NCBI RefSeq assembly: GCF_014217875.1
Contig: NZ_CP059060.1
Span: 1,240,001-1,304,000, forward strand
Length of the DNA: 64,000 nucleotides
Reading direction: 5' to 3'
From: Synechococcus sp. LTW-R
Lineage (GTDB): Bacteria > Cyanobacteriota > Cyanobacteriia > PCC-6307 > Cyanobiaceae
This document shows, one piece after another, positions 7,814 through 24,906 of this stretch. Numbering within the stretch: the first letter of the stretch is position 1; every line of letters starts with the position of its first letter. Both the position numbers and the translations under genes were made by a program. Under the pieces are notes generated by a model. That model did not search any database. It saw only the letters and a list, made by a program, of their open reading frames with translations, and was not told the DNA's origin.

Positions 7814-7887
7814 GCTCCCTTAGCTCAGCTGGATAGAGCAGCTGCCTTCTAAGCAGCCGGTCGTTGGTTCGAATCCAACAGGGGGCG
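7814..7887 (+). tRNA. tRNA-Arg (anticodon UCU)
   Basis: A complete 74-nt cloverleaf. The acceptor strand GCTCCCT pairs with AGGGGGC. The D arm is AGCTCAGCTGGATAGAGC, the anticodon arm has loop CTTCTAA (anticodon TCT), and the T arm contains GGTTCGAATCC. The 3' CCA is not encoded. It is the integration site of the adjacent element, which rebuilds the 3' part exactly and keeps the tRNA functional. Confidence 0.95.
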
Positions 7888-7888
7888 T
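7840..7888 (+). repeat. Left attachment core (in the functional tRNA-Arg)
   Basis: A 49-bp core starts in the anticodon arm and ends one base past the tRNA. It is identical to 16899-16947, with different sequence on both outer sides. Confidence 0.95.
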
Positions 7889-8003: not shown

Positions 8004-8034
8004 TAATTTCACGCAGATTTCACGCGGCGTGAAA
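8004..8034. promoter_or_regulatory. Left arm-type integrase/Xis sites upstream of the integrase gene
   Basis: Two tandem ATTTCACGC units 2 bp apart are followed immediately by an inverted GCGTGAAA, ending at the integrase start codon. The first 22 bases (8004-8025) recur exactly at 16821-16842 near the right end, in the same orientation. Position and duplication fit arm-type recombinase sites; the inverted unit next to the ATG could also let the protein repress its own gene. Confidence 0.65.
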
Positions 8035-9225
8035 ATGGCTCGGCCTGAGTGGCTCGCCCGGCTCTCCAAGAGCTTCAAGGCTCACCGACAGGGTCGATCC
8101 GGCTGGAACGTGGAGGTCATGCGCGACCGCCTGCGGGTGGTGTCGGCCGAGCTACCACCAAGACCAGACGAACCCGCCGACGCTCCGACGAAGCGCCGGG
8201 CCGTCACCCTCAAAACAGCACCAGGCCCCGCCAACGGCACCGAGGCTCTCGCCGAAGCGAGCGCGATCTTCGATTCCGTCATAGCCGGCACGTGGAGGTG
8301 GCCAGACCCCGACGGCCTCGACGCTGATGACGCTGGCCGCCTGAGCCCCAAATCCCTACAAGCCCTCGTCGACCGACTTGAGGCAAAGGTGGTCAACGAG
8401 CGCGTCGTCCCACGAACCTGGAAACGGACCTACGTCCAGTACTTCCGACGCCTGCTGGAAGTCGCCGGAAGCAGAGCCTGGCAGTCAGACACGGACCTAC
8501 TGACTGAGACGCTGCGCCACTGGAAGCCCAACAGCCGGTCGCGGCAGCAAGCTCACGACCGCTTTCGCACCCTATTTAAGGAAGCCGGCTGGGGATGGCC
8601 CGAGAGCGTCCTTGAGATGCGCGGCAACGGAAAGGCAGCCGCACCCGTAGCAGGGGTGAAGGGCTTCACCGCCGCCGAAAGCCTCGAACTACGAGAGCGG
8701 ATTAAGCGGAGCAAGCTCGGCCCCGAGTCCGCAGTGGCGTGGGACCTCATGGCGGCCTTCGGGATCCGCCCAGCCGAACTAAAAGGAATAACCCTGCGAA
8801 AGCACGGCGCCTCTCTGGTTGCAGTGGTGAAGCGCGAGAGGACCACCCTGAGAGGGAAGGAGGCCTACAGGGAAGTTCCCGCCGCTCCCCCAGAAGGGTG
8901 GCCCGCCGACTGCTTTGACCTCGCGGCGCGACTCGAAAAACACGGTCTTCCACCGCGATGGATGAACATGCCCGACCCCAGCGATCCGATGGGGCAGCAA
9001 CTGAAGCGCCTGCACAAGCGGGCCGCCGTCAACGTCGAGATCGACCCCGATCTCACTCCGTACGGGCACCGTCACGCCTTTGCACTTCGGCTGGCGACGC
9101 TTGGATGCAGCTACAGGGAAAGCGCGGACCTGATGGGACACAGCCCAGCGACCCACCTACTGATTTATGGCCAAGTGCTTGACACCCCGAAGCTGATCGA
9201 CAAGGTCCTCGCAGCCCAGGCCTGA
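8035..9225 (+). CDS. int: Tyrosine recombinase (integrase) of the tRNA-Arg element
   Basis: Catalyses site-specific integration and excision between the tRNA-Arg core sequences. The 396 residues end in a tyrosine-recombinase catalytic domain. Box I Arg is in GIRPAEL (about residue 244), box II is YGHRHAFALRL (about 343-353), LMGHS follows, and the nucleophile Tyr is in HLLIYGQ (about residue 378). The usual box II HxxR histidine appears as Tyr, with the RH pair kept. The N-terminal half is lysine/arginine-rich and probably binds arm sites. ATG 8035 lies directly after the arm repeats; the frame is open further upstream only as read-through of the att region. Confidence 0.9.
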   Translation: MARPEWLARLSKSFKAHRQGRSGWNVEVMRDRLRVVSAELPPRPDEPADAPTKRRAVTLKTAPGPANGTEALAEASAIFDSVIAGTWRWPDPDGLDADDAGRLSPKSLQALVDRLEAKVVNERVVPRTWKRTYVQYFRRLLEVAGSRAWQSDTDLLTETLRHWKPNSRSRQQAHDRFRTLFKEAGWGWPESVLEMRGNGKAAAPVAGVKGFTAAESLELRERIKRSKLGPESAVAWDLMAAFGIRPAELKGITLRKHGASLVAVVKRERTTLRGKEAYREVPAAPPEGWPADCFDLAARLEKHGLPPRWMNMPDPSDPMGQQLKRLHKRAAVNVEIDPDLTPYGHRHAFALRLATLGCSYRESADLMGHSPATHLLIYGQVLDTPKLIDKVLAAQA

Positions 9226-9521: not shown

Positions 9522-9728
9522 ATGTCTTTCTCGTCCACAACAGCGGAGTTAATTAGGAAAACCGGCCTAAGTGACTCAACCCTCTATCGCCTCCGTAAAG
9601 AAGGCGTACTGCGGCCTGGCCGGGATTACCGCGCTAACGGCTATGGCACCAAACAGCCAAAGCTGGCCTGGGATCCCGAGGCTGTCGATAAGACCCTGAC
9701 CCTGCGAAGCAAGCGCGTCCTCGCATGA
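9522..9728 (+). CDS. Small HTH protein, excisionase (AlpA/Xis)-like
   Basis: A 68-residue protein with a winged-helix-like pattern: 'ELIRKTGLSDSTLYRLRKEG', then 'LRPGRDYRANGYG' and 'LAWDPEAVDKTL'. This is the layout of small excisionase and AlpA-type DNA-binding proteins that bind helix-turn-helix first and use a short wing. It starts the replication operon: its TGA overlaps the primpol ATG (ATGA). A relative of the same pattern is encoded at 13045-13251 on the other strand. Confidence 0.7.
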   Translation: MSFSSTTAELIRKTGLSDSTLYRLRKEGVLRPGRDYRANGYGTKQPKLAWDPEAVDKTLTLRSKRVLA

Positions 9729-10753
9729 AAAAGCCCCCTATCCCGGGGGCCAATTCGACTCCTTGCCGCCAAGCCGTGGAGTCTGGTGCCCCGAAGGACA
9801 AATGCCACCCCAAATCTAGTGGGGTCCTTGATGCTTCATCGACACTATTGAGCCATGAGGGAATCGAAGCCTCAGAACTCGACCGCCTCGATTGCTTGCT
9901 TCCATTCGGGCGGGAGCTGCTGCCCCTAGGGGGACATAAGAACCCTGTTGAGACGAACTGGCCAGAACGAGAGGACTACCCACCGGCACGGCTTCGATTC
10001 GATAAGCGGACAAGGGCTGTTGGCCTAAAGACAACCGGGCCGTTGCTCTGCTTTGACCTCGATGGTCCAGAGGCCGTGGCTTACGCCCAGCAGGAATTAG
10101 GGCTCGGCTGGCCTTGTTGGCACGTCGGTCGAACTGATACGGAGGAACGCTTCAAGCTCGTCTGCGTCCCGAGCCCAGAGCAGTGGGCGCAGTTGCCTGC
10201 CCCCGGGCTGATCCTCAAAAAATCAGTTGCAGCGCCGGTGCGCGATGCCGACAACAAGGTCGTCTTTAAGGGGCAAGCCATCGAAGTTTTCTCCGATCGG
10301 CGCCGTCAGATCGCTGTATGGGGTGAGCACCCTGATGGTGGTCGTTACTGCTGGCCCACGGGCCGAGGTCCCGAACTAGCGATCAACCCGCCGCCCGCAC
10401 CTTGGTGGGATTTGGTTCTGGAGCTGCATCGGGAGCGAGCCCAACAGGCCCAGCCCAGTTCCGTACGTTCAGGAACAACCCGCTTAGACCCTTGTCCAAT
10501 CTGCGGCCGTAACAGCTCCGATACCGGGCTGTGGTGTGAGGAGACGGCAGAAGGCTTGGTTCTCTGTATGCCAGGCCAAACCTTCAATGCCGAGCTGAGT
10601 CACGGCCGTCTTGAGCTCGGCTCTGTTGTTGATGGCTGGGCTCTGAAGAAGCGAACTCCGATCGCAGAGGGAGACGTTCTGACCTTCGGGCTGCATCAAC
10701 CGAGCTTCATCGAAAACCTTCGTCGGCGCATGCGCGCTGCTGCCCGTACATGA
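9725..10753 (+). CDS. Primase-polymerase (AEP superfamily) with C-terminal zinc motif
   Basis: Probable bifunctional DNA primase/polymerase that starts element replication together with the downstream helicase. Of 342 residues, the 'LPLGGHKNPVETNW' stretch (about 67-80) and the acidic pair in LLCFDLDG (D111 and D113) match the N-terminal primpol catalytic core. 'EERFKLVCV' and 'IEVFSDRRRQIAVWGEHP' follow in the expected order. A CPICGR motif near residue 258 begins a possible zinc finger. It overlaps both neighbours by ATGA. The first codons contain a strong hairpin that reads as a terminator on the opposite strand. Confidence 0.78.
   Translation: MKKPPIPGANSTPCRQAVESGAPKDKCHPKSSGVLDASSTLLSHEGIEASELDRLDCLLPFGRELLPLGGHKNPVETNWPEREDYPPARLRFDKRTRAVGLKTTGPLLCFDLDGPEAVAYAQQELGLGWPCWHVGRTDTEERFKLVCVPSPEQWAQLPAPGLILKKSVAAPVRDADNKVVFKGQAIEVFSDRRRQIAVWGEHPDGGRYCWPTGRGPELAINPPPAPWWDLVLELHRERAQQAQPSSVRSGTTRLDPCPICGRNSSDTGLWCEETAEGLVLCMPGQTFNAELSHGRLELGSVVDGWALKKRTPIAEGDVLTFGLHQPSFIENLRRRMRAAART
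9728..9750 (-). terminator. Reverse-strand intrinsic terminator embedded in the primpol start
   Basis: On the minus strand the GCCCCC/GGGGGC stem with a 6-nt loop is followed by TTTTT, running into the primpol start codon. It would stop antisense transcription entering the excisionase gene; on the plus strand the hairpin lies immediately after the start codon. Confidence 0.6.
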
Positions 10754-12204
10754 CCTACCGACATCCTCTTCTTGAGGGCTTCCCTGAAAGTGAGCAGGAT
10801 CAGACGAACCCGCCTCACCCTTTACAGCCGGGCGAGCTGGCTCAGCACCTGAGAGATACGTTTGGGGAAAGGCTCCGCTTCAACTCTCTCATCGATGGCG
10901 TTTGGCTTGATGAGCGCCCAGTTACTGCAATAGAGCTTGACTGCTTTTTCGTCTACCTGAGTGGATTGGGTTTCAAAATTGACCCCAAAAGAGCCTCGTC
11001 AACTGTTGTAACTGTTGCTAGAGAACACACCTTTTCCCCAGTTTGTGAGTTTCTCAAGCAGCTCAAAGACGACCCCGGTATCGATCCAATTAACATCGCT
11101 ACCGTTGCTAAGGACTATTTAGGTCTCGAGGATCCGCTCGACTCTTCAATCCTCCGGACAATGTTGATTGGAGCGGTCGCGAGGGCACTTAATCCAGGTT
11201 CCAAGTTCGACACCGTTCTCGTTCTTGTTGGTCGACAGGGCATACGTAAGTCGACATGGCTTCGCAATCTGTTCTCTGATGCGTGGTTCAACGACACTCC
11301 ACAGCGGGATGACCGCGACATGCGCATGGCGATGCACAGCTGTTGGGCAATGGAGCTGGCAGAGCTTGAAACCGTCACCGGCAAAAGAGCTTCTGGAGAG
11401 CTAAAGGCCTTGATCAGTAGTCCTACAGATCGCTTCCGCAAGCCTTATGGCGCTGTGGTTGAGGTCTTCCCACGTCCTTCAATCCTGGTGGCGTCATGCA
11501 ATCGAAACGACTTCCTTCCCGACACGACAGGTAGCCGTCGATTTCACGTCGTCTCGCTGCCTGACACTCCACTCGATACGGAGAAGGTCGCTCGCGATCG
11601 CTGCCGTATCTGGAAGGCAGCACTGTTGGAATACGAAAAAGGCACACAGCCTTATCTTGGATCGGCGGAATCGGCGCTTATCGAGCGTCGCAACTCCAAC
11701 TTCAGTACAGAGCTGATGTTTGAGAGTCAGCTTTCAGCTTGGCTTGACGGGGTCTATACGATCGCCAGTGGCATCACTCACAAATTCCCCCCAATAACCA
11801 AGCCTTTTTCGACCGAACAGGCTTTACAGCGATCAGGTTGTCGCCAATCACCGAGCATTGTCGAGCTCAGGCAGGCTTGTGAGGCGCTCCGGAGTCTTGG
11901 CTGCGTTCAAGAGCAGTTTCGTTACCAAGGCGTTAAGGGCAGATGGTGGAAGCGGCCGTCACTCGTCTCCGCTGGCAGCCCTGGGGGTGGGACACCCCAA
12001 AACGAAGGCCAAACCAGCAATCTGGGCTTCTTGTCCCACTGTCCCAACACAAATCAAAAAGAGAACTCAAAGAAAGTTCCTGGTACGGAAGAAGGTCGAG
12101 AGTTGGCTCCCGCCGGCGGGACACCCGGGACACGGGACATATGGGAGGCATTCAGCCCAGTCGACCCCCCTGCTGATTGGAGGCTTGGCCGAGAGGGCGA
12201 TTAG
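10750..12204 (+). CDS. VirE-family (DUF5906/SF3-like) replicative helicase
   Basis: Probable ATP-driven helicase that works with the primpol in element replication. Of 484 residues, the P-loop is GRQGIRKST (161-169; families usually have GIGKS). A Walker B-like MELAELE is near 200, and the sensor-like 'CNRNDFLPDTTGSRRF' is near 250-265. The C-terminal 100 residues are proline- and glycine-rich and look disordered. Two truncated relatives occur at 21240 and 24181. The ATG overlaps the primpol stop, and the 3' end overlaps the convergent tail-like gene by 4 bases. Confidence 0.82.
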   Translation: MTYRHPLLEGFPESEQDQTNPPHPLQPGELAQHLRDTFGERLRFNSLIDGVWLDERPVTAIELDCFFVYLSGLGFKIDPKRASSTVVTVAREHTFSPVCEFLKQLKDDPGIDPINIATVAKDYLGLEDPLDSSILRTMLIGAVARALNPGSKFDTVLVLVGRQGIRKSTWLRNLFSDAWFNDTPQRDDRDMRMAMHSCWAMELAELETVTGKRASGELKALISSPTDRFRKPYGAVVEVFPRPSILVASCNRNDFLPDTTGSRRFHVVSLPDTPLDTEKVARDRCRIWKAALLEYEKGTQPYLGSAESALIERRNSNFSTELMFESQLSAWLDGVYTIASGITHKFPPITKPFSTEQALQRSGCRQSPSIVELRQACEALRSLGCVQEQFRYQGVKGRWWKRPSLVSAGSPGGGTPQNEGQTSNLGFLSHCPNTNQKENSKKVPGTEEGRELAPAGGTPGTRDIWEAFSPVDPPADWRLGREGD

Positions 12205-12917
12205 CGGCCTAAAGCCTGCTTCAGCCGCTTGCTGAGCATCGTTGGGATGTGATCGGCGGCTTCCTCCTCGATCAGCTTCGCGAACGGGAACTTCGGCGTC
12301 ACGGTTGGCGGGGTGTCGGCTAAGGCCATCAGCTGGCTGAGGGTCTTTGCTTTGCGGTGATACACGCCGGGTTGGAGGTGTCCGCCCGGCTTTTCACTTG
12401 GTACGACAAAGAATTTGTGGGGGCCTTTGCTGGGGCCGGCCATTTCGAGTGCGTTGAGGCTGCCAAGGACGCGGGTGTAGACGCTCGGCCTCAAATTGCC
12501 GCGACTGGTCAGCCCCAGCAATTGCGCCGCACGGCTTCGCTCGTTTGGGATAGCTACGCCGCGGGTGATGCCCCGCCGATCCAGTGCGCCACTGAAGCGG
12601 CCGATCTTGATCTGCTTCCGTGTCGCACCGCCTTCAGCAACTTGGGGGAACAGATAGGCCGCCGGTGACGTGCCTTTAACCGCAACGTCGTTTACACCGA
12701 TCGTGACCTCAAGATCGCCCATCTTGAAGTACGGGCTGCGGGTAGTGAATGGGACCGGGTTGTCGAACTCCTTGCGCATCTCCTCCGCGAGGAACCGCTT
12801 GGCATAAAAGCCAAAGTCCTTCAGGGCACGGTTCGCAGCGTAGGGCAGCTGAACTTTTTCGAGGACATCAAGTTCGTGCAGGATGCCCTTGAGGTCGAAT
12901 TCGACATGTTGTCGCAT
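12201..12917 (-). CDS. Phage tail/virion-like protein (gp10/minor-tail-like), tentative
   Basis: A 238-residue basic protein starting MRQHVEFDLKGILHELD. The stretch 'LPYAANRALKDFGFYAKRFLAEEM' followed by 'FTTRSPYF' resembles minor tail or HK97-gp10-like proteins, where an early 'A..AL..T' helix precedes a threonine/proline-rich turn. I recognise the pattern only loosely. It faces the capsid gene across two tiny genes and is transcribed the opposite way to it, so it has its own promoter, near 12930. Confidence 0.5.
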   Translation of the reverse strand: MRQHVEFDLKGILHELDVLEKVQLPYAANRALKDFGFYAKRFLAEEMRKEFDNPVPFTTRSPYFKMGDLEVTIGVNDVAVKGTSPAAYLFPQVAEGGATRKQIKIGRFSGALDRRGITRGVAIPNERSRAAQLLGLTSRGNLRPSVYTRVLGSLNALEMAGPSKGPHKFFVVPSEKPGGHLQPGVYHRKAKTLSQLMALADTPPTVTPKFPFAKLIEEEAADHIPTMLSKRLKQALGR

Positions 12918-12954: not shown

Positions 12955-13131
12955 ATGACGTTCTTTGACGACGACACTCCTATCCAGTCGGGTCCTGTTG
13001 ATGATTCCTTGCTGAGCCCTCAGGCAAGGCGCTACCTGGCTTCTCTAGCCGCCGACCGCAAGCGCAGTGCGGTGTTTGAGAGCAACTTCAACTGCGCTGG
13101 GATTCCACATCAGCGGAGCCTTAGCGCCTGA
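12955..13131 (+). CDS. Small hypothetical protein
   Basis: A 58-residue reading frame, MTFFDDDTPIQSGPVDDSLL..., with AGGA eight bases before its ATG. It is divergent from the tail-like gene. Its 3' half overlaps the HTH gene on the other strand, so one of the two may not be expressed. No family is recognised. Confidence 0.4.
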   Translation: MTFFDDDTPIQSGPVDDSLLSPQARRYLASLAADRKRSAVFESNFNCAGIPHQRSLSA

Positions 13132-13251
13132 TCCGCGCTTGATAAAGTGAGCGCCGGGCAGCAGGATTCCTGCTTCGCGCATCCTCAGAAGACTGCGAGG
13201 GTGACAACCCAGGTGCACACTCATCTCGTCATTGGTCAACCAATCAGTCAT
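13045..13251 (-). CDS. Second small HTH protein, excisionase/regulator-like
   Basis: A 68-residue protein, 'MTDWLTNDEMSVHLGCHPRS' then 'LLRMREAGILLPGAHFIKRG' and 'LMWNPSAVEVAL'. It has the same helix-wing layout and length as the protein at 9522-9728, with clear correspondence of 'GILLPG..' to 'GVLRPG..' and 'WNPSAVE' to 'WDPEAVD'. It may be a directionality factor or a repressor of the capsid-side promoter. It starts about 80 bp before the divergent capsid gene. Confidence 0.6.
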   Translation of the reverse strand: MTDWLTNDEMSVHLGCHPRSLLRMREAGILLPGAHFIKRGSGAKAPLMWNPSAVEVALKHRTALAVGG

Positions 13252-13333: not shown

Positions 13334-14353
13334 ATGAAAAACGCATATAACGGCGCATTCGATATCTTCGCTTTGGTCGAGAGTCAGCGTCGTGGTGCTG
13401 ACCCTTCCCTGGCCAAACGAGAGCGCGGAATTCTCGAAGTATTGGCCCAAAACAACCCTGAGGTGCGCACCCGTGGAGGCGTTCCGCTCCCTACGCAAAC
13501 TCAGGCTCGTGATTTGCAGCTGTCGACTGCAACTTCTGGCGGCAACCTTGGCAATAGCGCTTTGCTCGATGTGGCTGGCGCTGCTCGCCCCGCGACTGTT
13601 CTCGAACGGTTAGGCGCTCCGGTGGTGCAGTTGCGCCAAGCCGCGGAGGGTGCTCTGCCTGTGTTGGCGGGTACGCCCTCCGGGATGTGGATCAGCGCCG
13701 AGGGTGGCGCCATTCCACAGTTCGATCCCACCATCAACAGCGCGCTCCTAACGGCGCACGAGGCCAGCGTCCGACTCAGCTACAGCCGCCGACTGGCTGC
13801 AATGAGCGAGGACCGAGCTGCTCTGCAGGCTGATTTGCTGCGGGAGCTCGGCCAGATCATGGCTTCCACGCTCGAGGAAGGCTTCATCAAAGGCACGGGC
13901 AGCGAGGGGCAGCCCCTCGGCTTGCTGAATGTGACCGGCCGCCAAACCAAGAGTTTTGCTGGCGCGACCCCCACTTGGGCTGAGCTCACCGCGATGCTCG
14001 AGCAGCTGGGTGATGCCGATGCCCGGCTTGAGAGTGCGGCGTGGCTCCTGCACCCCTCCACGGCGGCCGACCTGATGGCGACCGAGAAAAGCTCGGGCTC
14101 TGGTCAGTACGTCCTGGAATACGACGGTGGCTACCGGATCGCAGGCCGCCCGGTCGGCATCACAAGCACGATCACGGAAGACACAGTCCTCTTGGCCGAC
14201 ATGAGCAAGCTGCGGCTGGTGTTCTTCGCGGCACCCCAGCTTCTGGTGGATCGCTACAGCCACAGCACGACCGGCGCCGTCCAGCTGGTGGTCTCGAACT
14301 ACACGGATATCGCAGTGACTTCAGGGCCAATGATCGTGGTCGGGTCCATATGA
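13334..14353 (+). CDS. HK97-fold phage major capsid protein
   Basis: A 339-residue shell protein. The N-terminal 80 residues look like a short scaffolding-type arm. The core then follows the HK97 capsid family: 'VLERLGAPVVQLRQ', 'MWISAEGGAIPQFDPTINS', 'FIKGTGSEGQPLGLLNV', 'WLLHPSTAADLM', 'IAGRPVGITSTI', 'VLLADMSKLRLVF', and a C-terminal beta strand ending 'GPMIVVGSI'. No protease, portal or large terminase gene is visible nearby. If made, the protein would have to assemble alone or mix with a helper phage's packaging machinery. Confidence 0.85.
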   Translation: MKNAYNGAFDIFALVESQRRGADPSLAKRERGILEVLAQNNPEVRTRGGVPLPTQTQARDLQLSTATSGGNLGNSALLDVAGAARPATVLERLGAPVVQLRQAAEGALPVLAGTPSGMWISAEGGAIPQFDPTINSALLTAHEASVRLSYSRRLAAMSEDRAALQADLLRELGQIMASTLEEGFIKGTGSEGQPLGLLNVTGRQTKSFAGATPTWAELTAMLEQLGDADARLESAAWLLHPSTAADLMATEKSSGSGQYVLEYDGGYRIAGRPVGITSTITEDTVLLADMSKLRLVFFAAPQLLVDRYSHSTTGAVQLVVSNYTDIAVTSGPMIVVGSI

Positions 14354-14467: not shown

Positions 14468-14671
14468 ATGTTTCAACGAGCTGAAACCCTCCGTCAGGGC
14501 TGGATTGCCGACCATGTGGCCCGTACTGCCTTTGGGCTGTCCAACGCTGAGTGGAAACGCGCCGCCGAGCTGATGGATGCCGACGGTGCGATCAGGTGCC
14601 CAAGGAAGGGGTGGCCCGTTGAAGCGCTCGGCCTCGCAGTCCGTCGGATCAAGTTGGAGCGGGGGCTGTGA
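14468..14671 (+). CDS. Small hypothetical protein of the element
   Basis: A 67-residue protein beginning MFQRAETLRQGWIADHVART. It is helical, with 'LSNAEWKRAAELMDADGAIR' resembling a short DNA-binding or adaptor domain, though not recognised as a family. It follows the capsid gene by about 115 bp, and its TGA overlaps the GTG of the next frame (GTGA), which suggests co-translation. Confidence 0.45.
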   Translation: MFQRAETLRQGWIADHVARTAFGLSNAEWKRAAELMDADGAIRCPRKGWPVEALGLAVRRIKLERGL

Positions 14672-14847
14672 ATTGGGTCACCGCCTACTGCGATCAGCAG
14701 CAGAAGCCAGCTCGTTTCGAGAAGCCCGATCCTGCGGTTGAGCGCCTACAAGAGAACCTCAGCCGGTGGTCAGGCTCAAGGCTCTGGGCAGGGTTCCAAA
14801 AAATCGGGCTGATTGCGAGGGTTTGGGAGGTCACTCACCTCTCATGA
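14668..14847 (+). CDS. Small hypothetical protein, translationally coupled
   Basis: A 59-residue frame from GTG 14668 (VNWVTAYCDQQQKPARFEKP...) that overlaps the preceding stop by GTGA and ends just inside the convergent secreted-protein gene. The start overlap is the main support; there is no recognisable domain. Confidence 0.4.
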   Translation: MNWVTAYCDQQQKPARFEKPDPAVERLQENLSRWSGSRLWAGFQKIGLIARVWEVTHLS

Positions 14848-15376
14848 GTTGTTCGACGTTCGACTTGTCGGTTTCATTCCTTCCGGAATCGACAACGTAA
14901 CCGCCCGGATCACAGGCTTGGAAAGCAAGTTGATCGGTGTATTCATAACCAGGAATCGTTTCTGTTTGGCAAATGCCCTGCCTGAACCACCTATACCGCT
15001 GCAAAAAGCCGTTCTTGTCAGGTGCATTCTGTGTAATGCTGCCACCATTCTTGATCACTTTGCAGCCTCTATCGCTCCAGAAACGACCTTCCTGCCATAG
15101 CTTCTTGTCATTCCCTAGGTCAACTACATAACCCTTATTGTTCTTTGAAGTGGCCGTGAGCGTTACGAATTTGCCTCTCAAGGACGTAATGCAGTTTGTA
15201 ATGCTTTTCTTTTTGCATTCCTTGTAAGCCAGGTCAGGCGAGAGCCCCATCTCGCCGGCCATTTCTGCCATGCACGCCTTAAGCGCAGTCAAATCGGCGG
15301 CAAGTACCGGGGTACTTATCGCGGCGGCTGTCACTAGCGGCGTGACAAGCAATGTCAGCTTTCCTCTGGCGCTCAT
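14831..15376 (-). CDS. Secreted cysteine-rich protein, function unknown
   Basis: A 181-residue protein with a signal peptide (MSARGKLTLLVTPLVTAAAISTPVLA, cleavage near residue 26). The mature part has about seven cysteines, which suggests disulphides in the periplasm or outside the cell, and two similar stretches 'GYVVDLGNDKKLW' and 'GYVVDSGRNETDK' that hint at an internal duplication. It lies between capsid-side genes and the secreted nuclease, so it is probably cargo. No family is recognised. Confidence 0.6.
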   Translation of the reverse strand: MSARGKLTLLVTPLVTAAAISTPVLAADLTALKACMAEMAGEMGLSPDLAYKECKKKSITNCITSLRGKFVTLTATSKNNKGYVVDLGNDKKLWQEGRFWSDRGCKVIKNGGSITQNAPDKNGFLQRYRWFRQGICQTETIPGYEYTDQLAFQACDPGGYVVDSGRNETDKSNVEQLMRGE

Positions 15377-15453: not shown

Positions 15454-15843
15454 ATGAAGCGTGCTCCTCTCCTTCTGGTTTTGGCCCTGGTGGGGTGCGG
15501 AGGCCAAGCCAGCGCTCTGCCCAGCGTCACCATCAGCAGTTGCTACGACGGCGATACCTGCCGCACGACCGAAGGCGAGAAGGTCCGGCTGGCTTGCATC
15601 GACACCCCGGAGCTGAGGGGCAGAAATGCTGATCCTTTGCCGGCCAAGGCTGCTCGCGACTATCTCCGCAGCAGGGTGGTCGGCAAGACCGTTCTGATTC
15701 GGCGAGTCGACACTGACCGCTACGGCAGGACCGTGGGCGATCTCTACCTGAAGCCCTTTGAGTCAGTTGGGCTTGATCTGGTCCGCAGTGGCCATGCGGC
15801 TGTCCTTCAGCGCTACGCCAAGCAGTGCCCGTGGGCTGATTGA
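15454..15843 (+). CDS. Thermonuclease-family (SNase-like) secreted nuclease
   Basis: A 129-residue protein with a lipoprotein-like leader (LLLVLALVGCGG, Cys near residue 15). The staphylococcal-nuclease fold is seen in YDGDTCR, 'VRLACIDTPELRG', 'KAARDYLRSRVVGKTV' and 'DRYGRTVGDLYL'. These carry the family's catalytic Arg and metal-binding Asp positions. It is probably a calcium-dependent nuclease acting outside the cytoplasm, either for nucleic-acid scavenging or against competing DNA. It is an accessory gene of the element. Confidence 0.82.
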   Translation: MKRAPLLLVLALVGCGGQASALPSVTISSCYDGDTCRTTEGEKVRLACIDTPELRGRNADPLPAKAARDYLRSRVVGKTVLIRRVDTDRYGRTVGDLYLKPFESVGLDLVRSGHAAVLQRYAKQCPWAD

Positions 15844-15932: not shown

Positions 15933-16331
15933 ATGGGCTTTATTCGCTGGAGCTGGGAAAACTACTGGCTCATGTGGAGGAAATCTTTCGACTTCCGTGG
16001 AGTAACGCCTCGGAACCAGTACTGGGCGTTTTTCCTCGTAGAGATGGTTTTGATATTTGGTTGTCTTCTATTGTTCGGCCTCGCGACCTATGTAGTTGGG
16101 CAAGGAGAGCCAATAACTGGGACCCCTTGGGAGCCGTTCTTCCAATTCCTCTTTGTGATTTACTTCATCTTTTTTATTGGTTCGTTTGTGCCTTTTCTTT
16201 CTTGTCAGGTAAGGCGCATTAGGGATGCGAGTGGCCGCGGACTCTGGATACTGCTTGGCCTCATACCTTATGCCGGAGGCCTTGCCTTGACAGTCATCAC
16301 GCTTTATCCAACCCGCAAGAGTCTTAAGTAG
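15933..16331 (+). CDS. DUF805-family membrane protein
   Basis: A 132-residue protein with three to four membrane segments. It has the DUF805 signature: 'SFDFRGVTPRNQYWAFFL' at the N-terminus and 'VRRIRDASGRGLWILLGLIP' near residues 93-112. The function of the family is not known; it occurs often in accessory regions of bacteria and phage-related elements. GC content is lower than in the flanking core genes. Confidence 0.75.
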   Translation: MGFIRWSWENYWLMWRKSFDFRGVTPRNQYWAFFLVEMVLIFGCLLLFGLATYVVGQGEPITGTPWEPFFQFLFVIYFIFFIGSFVPFLSCQVRRIRDASGRGLWILLGLIPYAGGLALTVITLYPTRKSLK

Positions 16332-16478: not shown

Positions 16479-16823
16479 GTGCAACTGATCACCATTACTG
16501 AGGCTGCTGCAATCCTGGGGCGCGATCCATCGACAATTAGCCGCGCGGTTGCGTCGGGGCGGCTGTCCTTCGCTTCTGGTACTCGGATGCTGGAGCGTGA
16601 TGGCATCGAGCAGCGCTTCGCGGCCCGCACCCGTCCCCGGATTGACCGTCCCTTGGCCAGAGGCCCTGAAAGGCCCCTCGAAGGGCTCGAGTGGTGGGAT
16701 GCGTGCGCCGCCAGGCTCAGCGGCTACCTGGACCCTTCCTGCGGCGTGTGGCCTCGCCTGAGCGGCGCTCAGCTGGCTGTCTTTGTGGGCTGCATAGAAA
16801 TGGCCGCCGATGAAATCCCGTAA
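16479..16823 (+). CDS. HTH protein at the right end of the element
   Basis: A 114-residue protein from GTG 16479. The N-terminal helix-turn-helix 'ITEAAAILGRDPSTISRAVA' and 'GRLSFASGTRMLERDGIEQRF' resemble MerR/Xis or Nu1-type (small terminase) DNA-binding domains. The remainder, with 'EGLEWWDACAARL', is not recognised. It could be a regulator or a packaging-recognition protein. Its stop codon falls inside the right arm repeat. Confidence 0.55.
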   Translation: MQLITITEAAAILGRDPSTISRAVASGRLSFASGTRMLERDGIEQRFAARTRPRIDRPLARGPERPLEGLEWWDACAARLSGYLDPSCGVWPRLSGAQLAVFVGCIEMAADEIP

Positions 16824-16842
16824 TTTCACGCAGATTTCACGC
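16821..16842. promoter_or_regulatory. Right arm-type repeat
   Basis: A 22-bp sequence with two tandem ATTTCACGC units, identical to 8004-8025 and in the same orientation. It lies 57 bp inside the right attachment core, compared with 116 bp inside the left one. Confidence 0.65.
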
Positions 16843-16898
16843 AACCGGCTCGACACTCAGTGAGATCCACTGCTCCACAGCGGGTTTGCGCTTAGAGA

Positions 16899-16947
16899 AG
16901 CTGCCTTCTAAGCAGCCGGTCGTTGGTTCGAATCCAACAGGGGGCGT
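16899..16947 (+). repeat. Right attachment core (tRNA-Arg 3' remnant)
   Basis: An exact 49-bp copy of the tRNA-Arg 3' part. The acceptor 5' strand and D arm are missing, so it is not a tRNA gene. The stop codon of the convergent core gene begins at the very next base. Confidence 0.95.
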
Positions 16948-20983: not shown

Positions 20984-21187
20984 ATGGATGCCGCCCGATC
21001 CATGGCCCTTCAGCGACTGCGCTCGATCAAAAAGCGCCTGATTCAATCAATGGACCGCCTCACCCAGGGGGGCTCCAAACGGGCCAAGACCAAACGGATC
21101 ATCAGCCAGAAAAGCCAGGAGGCCTACGAGGTGGTCTGCGGTGTGGCCGGTTGCGTCCTCAAAAAACGAGACGCGCCCAAGACGTAA
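20984..21187 (+). CDS. Conserved small basic protein, function unknown
   Basis: A 67-residue lysine/arginine-rich protein ('RLRSIKKRLIQSMDRLTQGG', 'SQEAYEVVCGVAGCVLKKR'). It is followed by a strong terminator, which supports it as a real gene. It is the last core-type gene before foreign DNA begins. No domain is recognised. Confidence 0.5.
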   Translation: MDAARSMALQRLRSIKKRLIQSMDRLTQGGSKRAKTKRIISQKSQEAYEVVCGVAGCVLKKRDAPKT

Positions 21188-21208
21188 GTCGACCCATCGG
21201 ACTGTTCA

Positions 21209-21235
21209 CCGCGGCGGGAAGCCGCGGTTTTTTTT
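21209..21235 (+). terminator. Intrinsic terminator
   Basis: A perfect 7-bp stem (CCGCGGC/GCCGCGG) with a GGGAA loop and eight T residues. The truncated VirE gene starts four bases after the T-run, so the element fragment was joined at or next to this terminator. Confidence 0.9.
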
Positions 21236-21239
21236 GCCG

Positions 21240-22070
21240 ATGACGAAGATCACAGCGGCCTTCTTCAAGCGGTACCTGGTCTCTGCAGTGCAGCGGGTCT
21301 ACGAACCCGGTTGCCCGCAGAGGATCTTGCCCGTTTTGGTCGGGCCGCAAGCCATCGGGAAAACCAGCTTGGGCACTGCATTATTCGGCGAGTTCTATGG
21401 CGATGCCGTCAGCGGCAACGCATCACTCGACGTTGATGACATCACAGCCATGTCTCTGACGTGGTGCACCGAACTGGCCGAGCTAGACGGCCTAACTCGG
21501 AAGGCTCAAACGTCTTCGCTGAAAGCCTTCGTCTCTCGCACGCACGACCTCATCAGGAGGAAGTACCACCACAGTTCGGAGCGCATCCCCAGACGAAGCG
21601 TGCTCTTTGGAACTTCCAACCTGTGGCCGCTGAATGACCCAACAGGGTCGACGAGGTTCTGCCTGATCTCGCTGGGCAAAAAACCACTCCCCTTCAACGA
21701 AGTCGCTCAGCTGCGCGACAACATTTGGGCGAGGGCTTTGGTCCAGTACCGCGACGGCTACCAGCCATTTCCAACCGCTCAAGAGGCCAAGGAAATTGCT
21801 GAACGCAATGCCTGTTACGACCCTGAGGATCCGCTTGAAGGCAAGCTCAGGCGCCTAGTCGAGCGAAAGGCGAGCGCGCCATACATCACGTTGGACGAAG
21901 TGCTCGATTTCATCGGCGCAGATCCAACAGGCTCGCCACAACTAAGCGCACGGCTCAATGTCGTTATGGCGCAACTGGGCTGGGACAAAAAGCGCCTCAG
22001 GTTAAACGGCCAAGGGAAAGTCTCTGCGTACTGGCCTACGGCCAGGGAGGGCAGGGATGAAAGCGCATAA
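21240..22070 (+). CDS. N-terminally truncated VirE/SF3-like helicase (copy 2)
   Basis: A 276-residue relative of the helicase at 10750. The P-loop GPQAIGKTS is at residues about 35-43 rather than 161, so roughly 125 N-terminal residues are missing. 'CTELAELDGLTRK' (Walker B-like) and 'LNDPTGSTRFCLISLG' follow in the same order as in copy 1. Sequence divergence shows it is not a recent duplicate. It probably belongs to a decayed element and may still be an intact ATPase module. Its end overlaps the next gene's start. Confidence 0.7.
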   Translation: MTKITAAFFKRYLVSAVQRVYEPGCPQRILPVLVGPQAIGKTSLGTALFGEFYGDAVSGNASLDVDDITAMSLTWCTELAELDGLTRKAQTSSLKAFVSRTHDLIRRKYHHSSERIPRRSVLFGTSNLWPLNDPTGSTRFCLISLGKKPLPFNEVAQLRDNIWARALVQYRDGYQPFPTAQEAKEIAERNACYDPEDPLEGKLRRLVERKASAPYITLDEVLDFIGADPTGSPQLSARLNVVMAQLGWDKKRLRLNGQGKVSAYWPTAREGRDESA

Positions 22071-23881: not shown

Positions 23882-24180
23882 TTCGAGGAGGCTGCCTTCT
23901 GTTTAGTATGAGTTGTATCTGAAGCGAACATCGTTAATTGGTGTCTTCTTGAGATCTGGCATTTCCTGAAGGCGAGATAACGAGAGGCTCCATCAGACTT
24001 CTTCCGCTAACACGGGGTTAGCGAACTCGTATCGCATGGCATTAGCTCCTCATCTTCGCCAGGAAAGCGCACACCGAGAAGGGCGGCGTCCCCACCGCCC
24101 CCTCGGCACCTAACCCGTCAGAACGAAGGCAGGCTTTGTAGGTGTCGGCCCCCTTGATAGCTCGGTCGCTAGCTACTGCC
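23882..24180. other. Gap before helicase fragment
   Basis: About 300 bases without a recognised gene. The junction to the VirE fragment lies near its right end. Confidence 0.35.
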
Positions 24181-24906
24181 ATGAGCAGAAGCACCTGCAA
24201 CCGAGACGACTTCCTCAGGGATGCCACCGGCCACCGGCGCTTCCTAGTTATCGAGACCGGCCAAATCGATTGTGATCGGATTGAGGCTGATCGCGACCGC
24301 ATCTGGAAAAGCGCTGCCCTGGCCTATCAGGCGGGCGAGCGTCCGTTCCTGACAGCGGAAGACCAGCAAGCCAGCAACCAGCGAAACAAAGGCTTCGAAC
24401 TGGAGAACCCGTTCGAGGCAACCGTCGGTCGTTGGCTCCGGTACGGCACGATCCCGGGTGATCAGTTCACCTTCGATGAGTGCCTGGCGGGCATCGAACG
24501 GTGCAACCTTCAGGCGCCCGATCGCCACTACGTCAAAGAGGCATTGAAGGAGCACGGCTGCAAGCCGCCCAAGCAACAGACACGCCGCCACGGCGTGAAG
24601 GTCAGGCTGTGGACTCACTACCGTGCCGCCTCGGCAGCCTCACCATCTGCAAGGGGGCGTGAGGCGCCTCAACCAGCAGCGGCAGCAAAGAGTCCGGGCG
24701 ATTTGTCTCATGCCTCACCTCCTTTTAGTGAAAGGAGTGAAGGACAAGAAACAGGGAGGCATCAACAGTCCCTGCCCGGTTGTGCGGAAAAGGGTGAGGC
24801 GGCGAGACAACAGCTCAAACCCCCTGTGGGATCTGGGTTCGACGTTGACTCGGACAACTCCAAGCCCGAGACAATCCCGCCGCTCAACCTCGATTGCTCG
24901 TTCTGA
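24181..24906 (+). pseudogene. C-terminal fragment of a VirE-family helicase (copy 3)
   Basis: 241 residues that begin inside the helicase core. 'CNRDDFLRDATGHRRFLVIE' corresponds to the sensor region of the intact copy at 10750, and 'DRIWKSAALAYQAGERPFL' matches 'CRIWKAALLEYEKGTQPYL'. P-loop and Walker B are missing, so it cannot be a helicase. The last 80 residues are serine/proline/glutamine-rich, like the tail of the intact copy. It is a relic of another element. Confidence 0.75.

Follow-up and report, generated by a model that had tools for sequence, protein, structure and literature searches.

A tRNA-Arg-integrated satellite of Synechococcus sp. LTW-R carries a major capsid gene of predicted HK97 fold without recognisable portal, protease or large terminase genes

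Organisation of the element

We analysed a stretch of 64,000 nucleotides from the genome of Synechococcus sp. LTW-R, referred to here as the window. It contains a 9,059-bp element that is bounded by a 55-bp direct repeat of tRNA-Arg(TCT) sequence (7834/16893). The GC content of the element is 0.58, compared with 0.67 for the flanking host DNA. In five genomes of the same genus the joined flanks give an uninterrupted match. Hence, the tRNA-Arg site is unoccupied in these congeners. The features of the element are listed in Table 1, where labels of the form L### denote loci or contigs used for comparison. Genomes used for comparison are labelled G###.

Table 1. Features of the LTW-R element. Positions are those of the window.
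Feature	Position	Strand	Remarks
attL	7834..7888	+	within tRNA-Arg(TCT) 7814-7887; 55-bp repeat, 98% identity to 16893-16947
22-bp repeat, copy 1	8004..8025	+	TAATTTCACGCAGATTTCACGC; two 8-bp iterons; identical copy at 16821-16842
Tyrosine integrase	8035..9225	+	PF00589 3e-7; 56-57% identity to integrases of satellites L150 and L036
Small HTH, excisionase/regulator type	9522..9728	+	weak HTH_17/MerR/phrog_66 matches
Primase-like protein	9725..10753	+	clusters with primase-helicases from related satellites
VapE-type helicase	10750..12204	+	PF05272 1.3e-56; phrog_1313 4.9e-56
phrog_1924 minor tail/tail-completion-like protein	12201..12917	-	5.4e-28; adjoins MCP region
C8 microprotein, about 45 aa	12955..13128	+	motif DDDxPxxPxP..D.LxSAQxRRYL
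Small HTH regulator	13045..13251	-	HTH_17 0.0014
Predicted HK97-fold major capsid protein (MCP), protease domain absent	13334..14353	+	339 aa; Pfam, PHROGs, AlphaFold2/Foldseek
Small ORF	14468..14671	+	no PHROG match
Small ORF	14668..14847	+	no PHROG match
181-aa protein, cargo candidate	14831..15376	-	signal-peptide-like N-terminus by eye; PHROG match chance-level only
Staphylococcal-nuclease-like protein, cargo candidate	15457..15843	+	PF00565 1.5e-13
Small membrane protein, cargo candidate	15933..16331	+	phrog_12855 membrane protein 3.4e-12
TerS-like winged-helix protein	16479..16823	+	114 aa; phrog_57 terminase small subunit 4e-4
22-bp repeat, copy 2	16821..16842	+	identical to 8004-8025
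attR (copy of tRNA-Arg 3' part)	16893..16947	+	55-bp direct repeat

The 22-bp repeats near both ends are probably arm sites for the integrase. The integrase gene is followed by genes for a small HTH protein, a primase-like protein, a VapE helicase, a phrog_1924 protein (opposite strand) and the C8 microprotein. Next come an HTH gene (opposite strand), the MCP gene, two small ORFs, three cargo candidates and a gene for a protein resembling the terminase small subunit (TerS). The element has an integrase, its own replication module and an incomplete set of virion genes, as phage satellites in general do. Elsewhere in the window, pieces of VapE-type helicases lie at 21141-22070 and 24142-24906 (31% and 40% identity to L045); these are probably remnants of other elements.

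The major capsid protein and its gene neighbours

The first-pass annotation described a full-length HK97-type capsid protein. This description holds. The gene is an exact 339-aa open reading frame, and residues 105-337 match Phage_capsid (PF05065, profile positions 35-278 of 280, E = 5.5e-24). Phage_capsid was the sole Pfam match at E values up to 1; the encapsulin sequence family was not matched. In PHROGs, matches were to phrog_617, a major head protein (1.6e-29), and phrog_10 (1.6e-26). For the AlphaFold2 model (pLDDT 73, pTM 0.65), relatives were drawn from viral contigs. Confidence was low over much of the N-terminal 81 residues, where a short helical segment is kept in the model. Foldseek matched the model to experimentally solved capsids of this fold, best to that of the marine siphophage R4C (3.3e-18), then to those of a GTA (3e-15), HK97 (1.5e-14) and the cf-PICI EcCI2 (1.4e-13). 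The structural comparison proposed at the outset thus gives a well-supported prediction of the HK97 fold, with a cf-PICI shell among the matches.

The same annotation called the capsid gene a lone one, with portal, protease and large terminase (TerL) missing. In Pfam and PHROGs searches, no other ORF of the element matched any of the three, and all of the unassigned ORFs are too short for a portal or TerL. Moreover, the whole host genome gave no match to the portal families PF04860 and PF05136, the TerL families PF20441 and PF05876 or the S78 protease PF04586. The lambda-type families PF05136 and PF05876 were included since they contain the portal and terminase of S-CBS3, which was the phage that matched best. 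Synechococcus elongatus served as a positive control and was matched by PF05136, PF05876 and PF04586. The profile search of the small proteins therefore revealed no complete head module within the element, and the gene is alone with respect to Pfam and PHROGs in the element and to these five families in the genome. The earlier picture of its surroundings is right about the main head genes and can be extended by two genes, the structural-type phrog_1924 gene beside the MCP gene and, at the right end, the TerS-like gene.

Relatives of the phrog_1924 protein occur in phages S-CBS1 and S-CBS3, and in three other elements (L032, L082 and L210). The structure model of this protein was too poor for use (pLDDT 49). 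The TerS-like protein, aligned together with its relatives from L032 and L150, matched 13 phage TerS proteins, taken as a set, with 96% probability in hhalign, over the DNA-binding part. The small HTH protein of the same element scored only 15% against this set. Identity to the TerS of phage contig L117 was 42% over 69 columns. The resemblance to TerS is confined to the DNA-binding part, and excisionase-type HTH proteins look similar there. The C-terminal part differs; the protein may therefore work alongside the TerS of a helper phage, not replace it. In proteobacterial PICIs, by analogy, Rpp acts with the helper TerS instead of replacing it (PMC10690885). A full-length TerS is encoded by two other satellites, L036 (phrog_57, 1.8e-22) and L084 (phrog_57, 8.4e-27). 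The first of these (L036:7793-9307) has a protease-less MCP and also carries an endonuclease (phrog_16945, 5e-41); its gene set is closer to a packaging module than that of the LTW-R element.

We identified the C8 microprotein in 20 of the scanned satellite loci, and its gene usually lies directly upstream of the MCP gene. It spans separate MCP lineages and differing GC contents. Unrelated proteins of the host may account for the weakest matches (E above about 1e-4). In phage contigs, matches to C8 were at chance level only (E about 0.5 or worse), and one C8 sequence, taken from relative L043, had no match among 50,697 phage records. We considered whether C8 is tied to the MCP only. This was ruled out; C8 is also encoded by related satellites that lack a recognised MCP. 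Given this distribution, C8 marks picocyanobacterial satellites with or without a recognised MCP and is conserved among them. One guess is that C8 is a factor for assembly or shell size.

Two MCP designs and loss of the protease domain

Scans of viral and genome contigs with the single MCP sequence did not find its relatives. Relatives of the MCP are present in 27 of 400 genomes of the same family. None of the 27 had a match to a portal or TerL (PF04860, PF05136, PF20441 and PF05876). Full-length relatives have one of two designs: fusion to an N-terminal S78 protease (533-600 aa) or a protease-less form (330-400 aa). Peptidase_S78 was matched in 12 of the 27 genomes, in every case inside an MCP open frame (539-617 aa). 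Among these 27, no Peptidase_S78 was found in genomes with protease-less MCPs, including that of LTW-R. Many of the relatives sit beside tRNA-Pro or tRNA-Ala genes, in elements with an integrase, a small HTH protein and a primase-helicase. Some are in same-family genomes with a GC content of about 0.33-0.36, in elements at tRNA-Pro. Where both ends could be located, MCP-bearing elements measured 7.8-10.7 kb. One tRNA-Pro satellite without a recognised MCP (in G173) encodes a 572-aa protein after the helicase (L209:8421-10139). The MCP profile gives no match to this protein, which could be another structural protein.

Two contigs hold elements that compare with that of LTW-R. In an IMG/VR contig, 9.2 kb lie between repeats at tRNA-Asn, with an integrase-type gene identified by eye (L082:2939-12204). 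This element shares with that of LTW-R the trio of MCP, phrog_1924 protein (7.5e-27) and TerS (phrog_57, 3.5e-22), and no match to a portal or TerL was found in it. Its MCP is protease-fused and frameshifted. The second, L150, is a viral contig of 9,151 bp with a 123-bp terminal repeat. The repeat means a circle or a head-to-tail repeat and is not, as such, proof of packaging. There is no whole tRNA gene in L150; a 45-bp piece of the same tRNA-Arg, upstream of the integrase gene, is the rejoined attP. The L150 integrase is 56% identical to that of LTW-R. Read as a circle, L150 shares the gene order of the LTW-R element: primase-helicase, C8, MCP, small ORFs, TerS-like, att and integrase. Five further contigs (L152-L156), taken up as candidate protease-less satellites, were rejected as ordinary phages; in L152 and L153, examined by eye, there are separate protease-like, head and tail ORFs.

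The L150 MCP (388 aa) is 56% identical to L116, a protease-MCP fusion from a phage. Its start lies after the protease, and a short segment before the shell domain is retained. In the tree, the L150 MCP groups with such phages and the LTW-R MCP falls in a separate clade of satellite MCPs (support 100/99), the long branches of which leave its exact placing uncertain. A single clade of all protease-less MCPs was rejected by the AU test (p-AU 0.005). Since the L150 MCP is derived from phages and one clade is rejected, loss of the protease was probably convergent. On these sequence comparisons, it probably occurred at least twice in elements of this kind.

Proposed shell building with helper parts and competing readings

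The element was compared with known satellite systems. Tycheposons are reportedly viral satellites of Prochlorococcus. VEIMEs are said to be small, integrative, virion-encapsidated satellites from the sea, seen as repeated units in virus-fraction DNA. We tentatively liken the LTW-R satellite to both, by their descriptions. Shared with tycheposons are integration in a tRNA gene with a flanking repeat (here tRNA-Arg(TCT) and 55 bp), a tyrosine recombinase, a primase/helicase and a picocyanobacterial host. The recombinase is homologous to integrases of low-GC tRNA-Pro/Ala-type elements of the same family, at an identity of only about 22-34%. Whereas most of those elements have a protease-MCP fusion, the LTW-R MCP is protease-less. 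The likeness to VEIMEs comes from L083 and L150, which are terminally redundant viral contigs. Both groups are named as marine satellite families (PMC11389934, PMC10803314). Like cf-PICIs, the element has its own MCP of predicted HK97 fold, which structurally matches the EcCI2 capsid. However, cf-PICIs encode an MCP, protease, portal, connectors, both terminases and HNH (PMC10690885). The LTW-R element has only an MCP, a TerS-like protein and a tail-type protein, and is therefore no cf-PICI. PICMI is also a small marine satellite of a lytic phage with an integrase, HTH protein and primase. Conversely, it integrates at fis, not in tRNA-Arg, and capsid-remodelling genes are absent from it (PMC10803314).

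In IMG/VR phage contigs that cover the relevant region, the gene order is TerS, TerL, joining protein, portal and (protease-)MCP. The satellites L083, L084 and L150 differ from this order. For the MCP as well as for the phrog_1924 protein, the top phage matches include S-CBS1 and S-CBS3. These are complete cyanosiphoviruses with a lambda-type portal and GpA terminase, neither of which is present in the LTW-R element. The S-CBS3 MCP is fused to an S78 protease and is 28% identical to the LTW-R MCP, which has no protease. Since a protease of the S-CBS3 type is part of the MCP chain, a shell without it would stay uncleaved or need helper subunits.

That the element is a satellite with a self-made shell is well supported by the att repeats, integrase, primase/helicase, TerS-like protein, MCP, empty sites and terminally redundant relative. 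It probably builds or reshapes a coat using the parts of an infecting phage. We favour, as rather probable, a satellite that brings its own shell protein together with a protein for packaging specificity, while a lytic cyanophage provides the portal, motor, protease and tail. The helper is probably a lytic cyanophage of the S-CBS1 or S-CBS3 kind, which package their DNA in the lambda manner. Once it infects, the element would excise and replicate with its own primase/helicase. It would then make its HK97-fold shell protein, without a maturation protease, and particles would form. The TerS-like protein would steer packaging to satellite DNA. The helper would contribute the portal and large terminase, the protease activity, the tail and most of the parts that join head and tail.

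The first-pass annotation also proposed that the element makes small particles or poisons the helper capsid by co-assembly. The anatomy of the element agrees with a shell of its own. Small particles are suggested by its size of roughly 9 kb. If the 33 kb of S-CBS3 fill a T=7 shell, and volume is proportional to T^1.5, then 9 kb would correspond to about T=3, a calculation that speaks to plausibility only. Related satellites without a recognised MCP are equally large (7.6-10 kb), so size cannot prove a small shell.

Co-assembly fared less well, and we think it unlikely. Here, the satellite MCP would enter helper shells, either shrinking them so that satellite DNA alone fits or poisoning them as a defence against phages. 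Satellites are known to remodel helper capsids, as PLE (PMC10945586) and P4 with Sid (PMC10690885) do. Furthermore, with the S-CBS3 protease fused to the MCP, a protease-less subunit could gain protease only by mixing with such a helper, and the conserved C8 could be a size determinant. However, identity between the LTW-R MCP and the sampled phage MCPs never exceeded about 34%. Homologous capsid proteins this distant seldom co-assemble. As for defence, the staphylococcal-nuclease-like protein gave a weak match to a defence model, and no other match of this kind was found. Other satellites carry complete protease-MCP fusions, which would be needless for a pure poison.

We judge it improbable that the MCP is instead without function, as the remains of a capsid-forming satellite or prophage that has decayed. 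Broken relatives do exist (stops in G346 and fragments in L038 and L056), and MCP branches in the LTW-R clade are long. Against this, intact full-length ORFs are present in several genera, and the closest pair of relatives, L031 and L034, shows purifying selection (NG86 dN/dS ~0.11, with dS saturated). The lone-MCP architecture also recurs in separate MCP lineages, and the genes are intact in the terminally redundant contigs L083 and L150. Least probable is an encapsulin-like nanocompartment, a lone HK97-fold shell for a use other than DNA packaging: encapsulins are likewise single genes for an HK97-fold shell, and the structural search with the MCP did match them, but the MCP belongs to phage MCP sequence families, has relatives fused to a phage maturation protease and lies in a mobile element alongside TerS-like and tail-type genes.

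Returning to the satellite with its own shell protein, we tentatively consider a 'shell-only' class. In such a class, which is possible though somewhat doubtful, independent lineages would keep one main head gene, repeatedly cut away the fused protease and rely on the helper for nucleation, maturation and packaging, with C8 maybe setting shell size or assembly. This split of head building between satellite and phage is not described in the papers cited here. Known capsid-encoding satellites have a complete head module and others borrow or reshape the helper shell; an element with the shell protein only stands in between. It is a natural experiment on which head components have to fit each other and which are interchangeable between a satellite and a phage. 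That the protease was lost repeatedly suggests selection for leaving maturation to the helper. Picocyanobacteria are major primary producers. Since MCP relatives, the majority of which sit in elements of this kind, occur in 27 of the 400 family genomes sampled, the elements may influence how much phage is produced and how genes are transferred in these organisms.
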